In this document: positions 10,225 through 64,000 of the stretch, in pieces
How positions within the stretch are numbered: the first letter of the stretch is position 1
How the letters are laid out: each line of letters begins with the position of its first letter
From: an uncultured Caulobacterales bacterium
GTDB lineage: Bacteria > Pseudomonadota > Alphaproteobacteria > Caulobacterales > Maricaulaceae
Direction: 5' to 3'
Assembly: GCA_938003545.1 (NCBI GenBank)
Contig: CALKXY010000013.1
Coordinates: 30,248-94,247 of the forward strand
Length of the DNA stretch: 64,000 bases
Notes under the pieces: model-generated
Database searches by the model: none
Seen by the model: the letters and a program-made list of their open reading frames with translations, nothing else
Told to the model about the DNA's origin: nothing
Made by a program: the position numbers and the translations under genes

Positions 10225-11718
10225 ATGTCCAAGATGAATAAAAAGAACAAACCTTTCCGTCCCAAAGCGCGCCGCCCCCGCGGGTTTGAAGATCGCTCTG
10301 CCGAAACGCTGCGTGCCGAAGCGCGGCTAATTCAGGCGGCGTTCTCTGTCTATGATATTCATGGGTTCGAGCCGCTCCAAACCCCTGCCTTTGAATTTGC
10401 GGATGCGCTCGGAAAATTTCTGCCAGATGATGATCGCCCAAACACGGGCGTCTTCGCCTTGCAGGACGATGACGAACAATGGATGAGTCTGCGCTATGAC
10501 CTAACTGCACCGCTCGCACGTTTCGTGGCTGAAAATTATGATGCCCTCGCGAAACCTTATCGCCGCTATCAGGCGGGCAGTGTTTTCCGCAACGAAAAAC
10601 CCGGACCGGGACGCTTCCGCGAATTTACACAATGCGATGCCGATAGTGTTGGCGCAGCGGGCGCTGCCGCCGACGCAGAGATGATTATGCTAGCCGCCGA
10701 AGTTATGCGCGCGGCAGGGTTGAAAGACGGACAATATGCGATCCGCGTCAATAACCGTAAACTCCTCGACGGTATTCTGGAATCCTCTGGTGTACCCAAC
10801 ACAACTGAGGGCGCAGAACAACGCCTGCAAGTGTTGCGCGCAATTGATAAATTAGACCGCCTCGGGGCAGAGGGCGTCGAAGCCTTGCTGGGCGAAGGCC
10901 GCGAAGACGAGTCTGGCGATTATACGGACGGCGCGAAATTAAATGCAGCGGGTATTAAAGCCGTCTTGGGGTTCACAACGGCATCATCCGAAAACCGCGC
11001 GGACACAATCCGCACACTTGAAGGATTGATGGGCACATCTGAACGCGGCCTCGACGGCGTCAAAGAACTTATTCAAATCGACTCAATTTTAAATGCTGTC
11101 GGATTTGGCAATGACCGCGTCAGCTATGACACGTCTATTGTGCGCGGCCTGGGCTATTATACAGGCCCTGTGTTTGAAGCCGAACTCCTGACTGAAATTA
11201 AAGACCGCAAAGGTCGCCCTGTTCGTATCGGCTCTGTTGGCGGCGGCGGGCGCTATGATGACCTCGTCTCACGTTTCCGCGGCCAAGCTGTGCCTGCCAC
11301 AGGGTTCAGTTTTGGCGTCTCGCGTTTCTTGACGGCACTGGAACGGATGGACGCGCTGGAATCTTCCGTCAAACCTCCCGTGATTATTTGCGCCTTTGAT
11401 AAGGGCCTCATGGGCGAATATTTCAAACTCGCGGGCGAACTGCACGTCGAGGGTATCCGCGCCGAAGTCTTTGTCGGCGCAGGCAATGTCACCAAACAAA
11501 TGAAATATGCTGATCGCCGCAATGCCCAAGTCGCTGTCTTAATGGGCAGCGACGAAATGGACGCAGGCCAAGTGACACTTAAGGATCTATACGAGGGCGC
11601 AAAAGCTGCCGCTGCAATTGAATCAAATGAGGAATGGAAATCTTCTCGCCCCGCCCAAGAAACAGTCTCGCGCGCAAATTGGGTCGCGGCTGTGAAGGCG
11701 ATGTTGGCGGGTGCATAA
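10225..11718 (+). CDS. hisS: Histidyl-tRNA synthetase
   Basis: RPRGFEDRSAETL, SLRYDLTAPLARFVAEN, YRRYQAGSVFRNEKPGPGRFREFTQCDAD, GLGYYTGPVFEAE, GGGGRYDDLV. Confidence 0.95.
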   Translation: MSKMNKKNKPFRPKARRPRGFEDRSAETLRAEARLIQAAFSVYDIHGFEPLQTPAFEFADALGKFLPDDDRPNTGVFALQDDDEQWMSLRYDLTAPLARFVAENYDALAKPYRRYQAGSVFRNEKPGPGRFREFTQCDADSVGAAGAAADAEMIMLAAEVMRAAGLKDGQYAIRVNNRKLLDGILESSGVPNTTEGAEQRLQVLRAIDKLDRLGAEGVEALLGEGREDESGDYTDGAKLNAAGIKAVLGFTTASSENRADTIRTLEGLMGTSERGLDGVKELIQIDSILNAVGFGNDRVSYDTSIVRGLGYYTGPVFEAELLTEIKDRKGRPVRIGSVGGGGRYDDLVSRFRGQAVPATGFSFGVSRFLTALERMDALESSVKPPVIICAFDKGLMGEYFKLAGELHVEGIRAEVFVGAGNVTKQMKYADRRNAQVAVLMGSDEMDAGQVTLKDLYEGAKAAAAIESNEEWKSSRPAQETVSRANWVAAVKAMLAGA

Positions 11719-11819
11719 ATTTCGATAGGCACAATCATCTGTGTTTGGTATAAATTGCATGTGAATTTGTAAGTTTGAAAACTTAATCCGCGTCTTGCGC
11801 AAAATAAACACGTTCAGTT

Positions 11820-12118
11820 TCAATTACTTATAAAAATATCAAGAGATGCGTCCTTGGGTCTATATTTGTAGGCTAGTTTAAACTTGTCTTCTCACAACGG
11901 GCGACCAAGCGTACGTTGGCTTGTTCGGTGAGGAGCGGCGCTTGTCATTGGATGATGCTGGGTAACGTCAGCAAAGTTGGGTGGCCTATCGCGAGCTGAT
12001 TGAGCCTAGACTGTTCTGTTCGGCCGGTAGTGGAGAAAGGCGTCGTCGCGAGGGTCCCTCTGGGGCCGAAAACCACATTGTTATTCCGGTTCCGCCGGGC
12101 CCTGAAATACCCTCGCGA
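11820..12118 (+). ncRNA. Candidate structured intergenic RNA, copy A, downstream of hisS
   Basis: Conserved block tcaattActta...atcaagagaNNNNtccttgg shared with 63748. Long hairpin CTTCTCAC(11888)-AACGGG-CGACCAAGC / GCTTGTTCG-GTGAGGAG(11935). Second perfect 10-bp stem TCGCGAGGGT 12046-12055 / ACCCTCGCGA 12109-12118. Strand inferred; no known RNA family recognised. Confidence 0.4.
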
Positions 12119-12336
12119 ACATCCCGTAAAACGGAACATTTTTCTAACGAAGACAACAGAGACTAAGAGATACAGGAACTAAAGCGGTTCCGAGGATAGC
12201 GAAGCCCCCCGCCAGATGTTCACGCGTTTAACGCGGGATTATGCGATGAGCTTTGCGGTAATATTAGAGGGTCCGTAGATTGCGTTGTGATGCGCGGTGT
12301 TGAGTCTTGCTCTGAACGCGCCGTGGTTGTTTCCAA

Positions 12337-12392
12337 TAAAAAACCCCGCCTTGTGCAATTCGCTTTTGCGAAATGCACGATGGCAGGGCTCT
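12337..12392 (-). terminator. Rho-independent terminator of ctrA
   Basis: On the minus strand: GCCCTGCCATCGTGCATTTCGC-AAAA-GCGAATTGCACAAGGCGGGGTTTTTT. Confidence 0.85.
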
Positions 12393-12433
12393 TTGTGAGA
12401 CATGGGAGGATGTCCCGTATATTTAGATGTCGC

Positions 12434-13129
12434 CTAGGCTGACATTTTTTCTTTGGCTGGATCACGTAGAACATATCCACGGCCCCAAACGGTTTCGATG
12501 TAATGTTCGCCTGCTGTTGCGGCTGCGAGTTTCTTACGCAGCTTACAGATGAATACGTCGATGATTTTCAATTCTGGCTCGTCCATGCCGCCATAAAGGT
12601 GGTTGAGGAACATCTCTTTTGTGAGGGTCGTGCCCTTACGTAGGGAGAGCAGCTCTAGCATTTGGTATTCTTTGCCCGTTAGGTGGACGCGGTGATCGCC
12701 AACTTCGACAGTTTTCGCATCAAGGTTCACTTTGATGTCGCCTGTTGTGATAATGGACTGGCTGTGGCCTTTGGAGCGGCGAACAACGGCGTGGATACGC
12801 GCAACAAGTTCGTCTTTATGGAAAGGCTTTGTCATGAAGTCATCAGCGCCAGTGCCGAGACCGCGAACTTTGCTGTCGATGTCATTTGTACCTGACAGGA
12901 TAAAGATCGGTGTGTTGACCTTTGCCATGCGTAATGTTTTCAACACGTCAAAGCCTGGCATGTCCGGAAGGTTGAGGTCGAGCAGGATAATATCATAGTC
13001 ATAGAGCTTGCCGAGATCGACACCCTCTTCGCCTAGATCCGTTGTGTAAACATTAAAGCCCTCAGACTTGAGCATCAGCTCAATGCCTTGTGCCGTGGCC
13101 ATGTCATCTTCAATTAGAAGAACTCGCAT
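12434..13129 (-). CDS. ctrA: Cell cycle response regulator CtrA
   Basis: [67 protein letters not shown]...; C-terminal winged helix [40 protein letters not shown] is characteristic of CtrA. Confidence 0.96.
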
Positions 13130-63692: not shown

Positions 63693-63747
63693 TGAAAAAG
63701 CTTTGAAATAATGATCCTTGTTTTGCAGAAATAATAATCATTCCACT

Positions 63748-63863
63748 TCAATTGCTTACTGCAAAAATCAAGAGAATGATCCTTGGTCCCAAAAGCTATG
63801 ATACATTACAGAAGTTCTTTCGGACACGGGACAGGCGAGGCCTCGCTTGCTGGTACCGAGAGA
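63748..63863 (+). ncRNA. Candidate structured intergenic RNA, copy B (may continue past the window)
   Basis: tcaattGctta...aaaaatcaagagaNNNNtccttgg matches copy A at 11820; hairpin TCTTTCGG(63816)-acacggga-CAGGCGAG-gc-CTCGCTTG-ctggta-CCGAGAGA(63863). Confidence 0.4.
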
Positions 63864-64000
63864 CGGTGGGGTTAAGCGTCGGATGGTGAGACATCTGGAG
63901 GTGCTGGGCCTTTTGGAGTGAGAGCCGACCGCCTTGTCTAATGGCATGACTTGCGGGGACAAACAGGCCGCTGCATCAAAAACCGCTGCCGCGTGGCCGT

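Follow-up and report, generated by a model that had tools for sequence, protein, structure and literature searches.

A high-copy family of structured RNA genes with a linked small protein gene in Litorimonas and related bacteria

The intergenic DNA downstream of hisS in the 64,000-nucleotide stretch analysed here (the window), which belongs to a 2.3 Mb draft genome of 52 contigs (G000), resembles a second region that runs into the end of the window, and the question raised is whether the two encode a structured RNA and what sort of genetic element they represent. A first-pass annotation made from the letters alone had described them as a two-copy element having a conserved leader and a hairpin with ACGGG in an internal loop. 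On checking, the letters, the stems and the distances were found as described, with ACGGG at 11897 and 63826, that is 77 and 78 nt from the start of the shared block, and 59 nt from atcaag in copies A and B alike. The gap from ctta to atcaagaga had been given as 15-16 nt and is actually 7 and 8 nt; the search pattern proposed with the long gap (run as N{10,20}) gave zero matches. With a shortened pattern and the gap set to N{5,12}, 5 places were found in the genome against 0 for the reversed control. The count of two copies was wrong, as DNA similarity locates copy A (11776-12203) at about 20 further places in its own genome, and copy B has 47 matches there. It may be noted that some of the places for A are halves of one copy, since many copies in this draft lie at contig ends. 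Copy number, the division into classes, a palindromic loop, a 3′ CCC partner for ACGGG, a linked protein gene and recombination at the copies are all additions to what that annotation contained. The features of the two loci are collected in Table 1.

Table 1. Coordinates of the features of copies A and B in the window
Feature	Position	Strand	Basis or remark
Leader of copy A	11776..11884	+	Conserved upstream block, common with class B; similarity of the G000 copies begins here
Leader motifs [A/G]TCC of copy A	11786 (-101), 11850 (-37)	+	Motif count in 117 leaders
-10-like box of copy A	~11874-11879	+	Promoter activity inferred
Class A structured RNA gene	11885..12143	+	Covariation, covariance model match; start and end inferred
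Hairpin 1	11888..11935	+	Outer stem CTTCTCAC 11889-11896 / GTGAGGAG 11928-11935; pairs 2-9/46-53 of A2 change double-sided
ACGGGC internal loop of hairpin 1	11897-11902	+	Sequence
Apical loop AGCGTACGTT, self-complementary, core CGTACG 11910-11915	11908..11917	+	Proposed kissing-dimer site
Long 3′ domain	12046..12125	+	Inverted-repeat arms 12046-12068/12096-12118
3′ ACATCCC tail	12119-12125	+	Can pair with GGG of hairpin 1; covaries with the 5′ GGG motif between lineages
3′ block TAAGAGATACAGGA-hairpin-TCCGAGGA	12164..12203	+	Alignments; ORF-bearing copies
Copy B, class B	63706..64000	+	Leader 63706-63812; RNA from ~63814; truncated by contig end, which is the window end
Self-complementary loop GCGAGGCCTCGC of copy B	63835..63846	+	Position equivalent to the copy A loop

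The loci belong to a family of dispersed structured RNA genes, present in about 50 or more copies per genome in Litorimonas (Maricaulales, Robiginitomaculaceae) and its relatives. This family is real, high-copy and structured, and was uncatalogued until now. In the Rfam 15 covariance search no match was obtained for the window at gathering cut-offs, nor for 11700-12440 with E up to 5. Judged by sequence, copies A and B are two classes (A and B) of one putative RNA gene family. A covariance model (R2), for which A-type copies alone served as the training set, matches copy A with E = 6e-35 and still finds copy B with E = 3e-4, which puts the resemblance first noticed between the two beyond chance. 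These are the sole matches below E = 0.1 in the window (next best 0.18), spanning 11887-12026 and 63815-63927. Both classes share one plan: the leader is followed by hairpin 1, in which GGG precedes an inner hairpin whose loop is self-complementary; then come a branched middle part, a long helix containing CGCG, a tail AC-NN-CCC and finally a T-rich stretch. The class A RNA is about 260 nt long without inserts.

The copy number and patchy distribution are established by searches of related genomes. By DNA similarity, further class A copies occur in 8 sister genomes with ~67-85% identity, and G004 has only weak 60-nt matches at the same level. G013 (complete-quality, 9 contigs) is a better basis for counting class A than G000, and 15 of its loci pass the covariance model. 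Class B matches number 52 in G008, 39 in G013 and 26 in G010; copy B has matches in 10 of the 18 genus genomes, and within the genus class B is found only in genomes having class A (p = 0.0015). In the family, 22 of 137 genomes from 5 genera carry the RNA, and R2 adds four more. Elsewhere in the order there was no RNA match apart from one weak 46-nt hit, and none was found in 384 other genomes of the class. Weak members were missed because the search filters are strict, G046 being an example. At least four genomes of the same genus with ≥90% completeness (G001, G006, G014, G017) lack the RNA. The copies are intergenic and lie in every orientation relative to the neighbouring genes; regulation of neighbour genes was rejected on account of this random orientation.

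That the stems of the element keep their pairing as the sequence changes had been proposed from two copies, with more copies having compensating stems as the test for a family. Many such copies were found, and extensive compensation in both classes establishes the structure. For 33 Litorimonas copies of class A, RNAalifold gives 35 pairs with 15 compensated on both sides. With 63 copies of several genera, 26 of 34 pairs are compensated; the first structure was used in fitting that alignment, which therefore leans towards it. Class B has double-sided changes in 38 of 83 pairs (13 copies, aligned without structure). When the alignment cells of 27 A pairs are counted, 1247 are Watson-Crick, 313 G-U, 15 A-C and 61 other. 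Therefore, this bias of wobbles over mismatches marks the plus strand as the one under selection, whether in the form of RNA or of single-stranded nucleic acid. At the 3′ end of copy A there is a conserved ATCCC followed by a small hairpin and TTTTT, which is terminator-like; its stem varies with compensation among the A copies (CCCG/CGGG, CCCA/TGGG), and the terminator scan left this weak hairpin unflagged. A likeness of AAGAGATACAGG to a group I intron core, seen by eye, was dropped as P8 would not fit between the R-like and S-like motifs.

Two irregularities of the RNA body may be recorded separately. A hairpin of 90-100 nt with ends like GTGCAATTCTGTTT...AAACAGAATTGCAC is inserted in the A RNA at either or both of two fixed points in L032, L040, L050, L051, L056, L066 and L079 (from G000, G008, G010 and G013), as if a second small mobile hairpin were living within the first. 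Also, in L066 / L108 (G013:C1:1577873-1578069) part of the RNA is tandemly duplicated, giving two pattern matches 62 nt apart.

The ACGGG of the first-pass annotation adjoins the hairpin carrying the palindromic loop, the self-complementarity of which is established. In class A, 16 of 19 distinct loop variants contain a perfect Watson-Crick palindrome of at least 6 nt as against 7.1% of control windows, the inner variants being GTGCAC, CGTACG, CGATCG, TGTACA, TGATCA and GACGTC. In class B, 8 of 11 variants are palindromic as against 13% of controls (GCGAGGCCTCGC, GAGCTC and AGCGCT). Binomial odds for these counts are not to be taken literally as the variants are related by descent; about nine distinct palindromic cores are retained. 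A loop which is nearly always self-complementary despite sequence change suggests homodimerisation, and two RNA molecules probably kiss at this loop, which is an inference and has not been demonstrated. Pairing is possible between the GGG of the same motif and the CCC of the 3′ tail, and the flanks of the two change in step: GGGAC/GTCCC (g25 and g15), GGGGC/GCCCC (G004), AGGGC/GCCCT (G110), TGGGC/GCCCA (G003), ACGGG/CCCGT, and GGGACAG/CTGTCCC in class B. Outside GGG/CCC the agreement among the Litorimonas A copies is imperfect and one pair fails in some G110 copies, so the predicted pairing of GGG near the 5′ end with CCC at the 3′ end of the RNA is graded as supported, not proven.

The shared block had also been suggested to be a common promoter or leader, and this is borne out to the extent that motifs with promoter geometry occupy fixed positions in it. 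Counted from the RNA start, the motif [A/G]TCC-N-N-[G/C] occurs at -37 and again near -101 (background 0.0027 per nt), the two being 64-65 nt apart in 22 of the 30 copies having both. In other genera a TATATT-like box lies ~17 nt past the proximal motif. A scan of the leader for the sigma-70 consensus found nothing, which implies an alternative -35 recognition. The leader common to A and B thus looks like a promoter from its motifs alone; its activity and the transcription of the RNA are inferred in the absence of expression data. The leader of copy B (63705-63784) also has three direct repeats like GAAATAATGATCCTT at intervals of 23 and 42 nt, which look like phased protein-binding sites.

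One or two A copies per genome run into a gene starting AGGAGG-N4-ATG-CCC-CGA-GGA..., the product of which is a basic, helical protein of 100-180 aa. In these copies the partner gene has its ribosome-binding site and start (AGGAGG..ATGCCCCGAGGA) where copy A has its 3′ block (Table 1); copy A itself has no ORF, and solo copies retain ATACAGGA-hairpin-TCCGAGGA at the partner-gene position. A profile search of the 137 family genomes gave 17 partner genes in 12 genomes of three genera. In 14 of the 17 the model places the RNA directly upstream, in two more (L297, L306) its 3′ part is there, and the remaining one begins near a contig start. The partner gene occurs only directly behind the RNA, and the linkage is exclusive. 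Counted by genome, 11 have both RNA and protein, 1 protein only, 15 RNA only and 110 neither (p = 1.6e-8), and the lone genome with protein only does contain the RNA when searched without filters. The identity among the proteins is 21-48%, which indicates fast evolution. No match worth the name was found in Pfam, PHROGs, NCBIfam, PADLOC or PDB. The structure model is a plain helical hairpin of two long helices (pLDDT 81, pTM 0.42), for which a fold search of PDB returned nothing at E < 0.9. We infer, having no binding data, that the protein binds the RNA or the RNA dimer. In genus g25, one RNA copy (L181, G126) has behind it a pair of small ORFs, ~98 and ~91 aa long, which do not resemble the MPR protein family and may have replaced the usual partner.

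Sequence exchange among the copies is evident from their similarities, and homogenisation within genomes is established. Copies are more alike within genomes (82%) than between them (73%), and 23 of 33 have their nearest relative in the same genome as against a shuffled mean of 6.8. Locus pairs between species mostly have one flank in common, and two pairs have both; as several copies share one flank between species, many insertions are old. A locus of G013 (L059) joins the upstream flank of L073 to the downstream flank of L070, two G010 copies with 98% identity across 653 nt. Likewise the hisS side of copy A matches L078 of G010 and its ctrA side matches L054 of G013. The hisS-ctrA adjacency (window 11718-12434) is seen only in G000, with copy A exactly at the junction. 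In 16 sister genomes in which ctrA was recovered, hisS was not found in the fetched flanks, and the idea of a hisS/ctrA site preserved in the genus was rejected. Copies often lie at gene-order changes; it may be noted that repeat misassembly could mimic such exchange of flanks. RNA-templated copying, considered for the identical tract of L070 and L073 that starts 2 nt before the RNA, was rejected because the tracts of other pairs begin anywhere from -108 to -1, so ordinary recombination suffices.

Mobility, and any enzyme responsible for it, remain inferred. No target-site duplication was found above the mismatched-pair control; as the exact ends of the element are not known, a short one could be missed. 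No terminal inverted repeats were reported around copy A, and no empty site was proven. With neither terminal inverted repeats nor target-site duplication found, the family does not qualify as a MITE or a classical insertion sequence derivative. The copies have no linked transposase, recombinase or reverse transcriptase. A reverse transcriptase was rejected as the driver since RVT_1 was found in just 6 of the 18 genus genomes and is missing from the copy-rich G013, and with the same absence membership of the group II introns, retrons or other retroelements is not met. Derivation from REP/RAYT or IS200/IS605 repeats is also not met, as Y1_Tnp (PF01797) occurs in 0 of 18 genus genomes in a search that detected its controls. 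Neither phage and plasmid records, searched as DNA and as protein, nor viral contigs, searched with a DNA pattern, gave a match, so nothing points to a phage or plasmid as the vehicle. Two other repeats lie near some copies: a dispersed palindromic repeat GTCATCCCGCAC...GTGCGGGGTGACA within tens of nt downstream of six G010 copies (L071, L072, L076, L077, L080, L081), and a further upstream repeat TTTTGGAGTTTTTCAACAGTATT common to L027, L032 and L038 of G000.

To rationalize these observations, we lean, with no great margin of confidence, towards a ribonucleoprotein element that is selfish, or was domesticated recently, and has many solo RNAs derived from it. Each copy would make, from its own promoter-like leader, a multi-domain RNA of 260-450 nt, in which the GGG of the 5′ hairpin would pair with the CCC at the 3′ end and the self-complementary loop would let two RNAs kiss. 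The A copies with the gene for the small basic two-helix protein (one or two per genome) would be the parent copies. The ~15-20 solo A and 25-50 B RNAs in each genome would derive from such copies and rely for their spread on them or on host enzymes. Recombination would then copy sequence tracts among the loci, homogenising the copies and rearranging the chromosome. A more specific proposal is put forward only tentatively: in a selfish element of a new kind, the self-dimerising RNA would assemble with the one small helical protein into a particle able to spread RNA-gene copies by the dozen through a chromosome, although the element has no transposase, nuclease or reverse transcriptase that can be recognised.

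Considerably less likely is a particle that serves the host, with RNA in many copies for a high dose as for rRNA, kept alike by gene conversion, its dimers or assemblies working for the cell and the protein a core component. Strong purifying selection on the RNA structure, the exclusive protein partner across three genera and the retention of some loci at common positions between species would suit it. Yet the RNA is missing from the four well-completed genomes named above and from most of the family, the partner protein evolves fast, and the neighbours and orientation of the copies are random. We consider it improbable that the fold is a single-stranded DNA signal, like REP or IS200-type ends, for a transposase or recombinase, with the RNA incidental. 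The repeat-like intergenic spread and the contig breaks and recombination at copies are compatible with such a DNA-level repeat, and G-T pairs can form in single-stranded DNA too, but the excess of G-U over A-C and the promoter-like leader at a fixed distance fit RNA better, the Y1 transposase is absent from all 18 genomes, and the fold is far more elaborate than the known REP-like hairpins. An RNA-protein defence system or a toxin-antitoxin pair of type III layout, with the many orphan RNAs as spare antitoxin, is suggested by the order of RNA, terminator-like hairpin, ribosome-binding site and small protein gene, but has very little to recommend it given a partner without Pfam, NCBIfam, PADLOC or PDB match, an RNA body that is no tandem array in the alignments and dozens of orphan RNAs per genome, which is atypical; membership of type III proper (ToxN-like toxin with tandem-repeat RNA) is not met.

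Returning to the ribonucleoprotein element, comparison with known systems may be useful. BOX repeats are built of short modules, HEARO and omega RNAs are few-hundred-nt structured RNAs with many stand-alone copies and a minority linked to an ORF, as is the case for the Litorimonas RNA, and ColE1 RNA I/RNA II with Rop combine kissing RNA loops with a small helical-hairpin protein. The ColE1/Rop likeness is a resemblance only, as there is no sequence or fold match and the Litorimonas loop is self-complementary and chromosomal. The HEARO and IscB-IsrB omega RNA elements (PMC9755519; HEARO in PMC12286853) are among the closest known systems, but the partner here is a 100-180-aa helical protein and not an HNH or RuvC nuclease; with no Rfam HEARO match and no Pfam match for the linked protein, membership is not met. 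The pneumococcal BOX, with RUP and SPRITE, are parasitic-looking structured intergenic repeats of few related species with a slow insertion rate, and some large BOX copies have ORFs and transcription (PMC3049150). The Litorimonas RNA is alike in being an intergenic structured repeat of few related species with some ORF-bearing copies, but unlike BOX it is multi-domain, with a long-range helix, a palindromic loop, a promoter-like leader and one exclusively linked protein family. With many structured copies between genes, a range of few related species and no transposase of its own, it fits the description of a BOX-like parasitic intergenic repeat, a label that does not mean BOX itself, the modules of which were not compared. 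OLE, ROOL and GOLLD, large ornate RNAs found in bacteria and without a known function, assemble into homo-oligomers; intermolecular kissing loops have been described for ROOL, and OLE has dedicated partner proteins (PMC12286853). The Litorimonas RNA may self-associate like them, with oligomerisation predicted from the palindromic loops only; unlike them it is shorter, has tens of copies per genome and has no Rfam covariance match. By the tests run, its spread appears to resemble that of BOX repeats (PMC3049150) and HEARO elements, and it belongs to none of the systems compared.

The family stands out by its strong covariation and its unusually high copy number, by a protein partner that is both exclusive and uncatalogued, and by the predicted kissing dimer. 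It is carried by a type strain in culture, L. cladophorae KCTC 23968, so that transcription, dimerisation, binding and mobility are open to testing. Should the family prove mobile, it would represent an element that spreads with no known enzyme; should it not, a lineage-specific RNA-protein machine present at tens of gene copies. Either way, many of the assembly breaks and changes of gene order at these loci in the genus are explained by the family.
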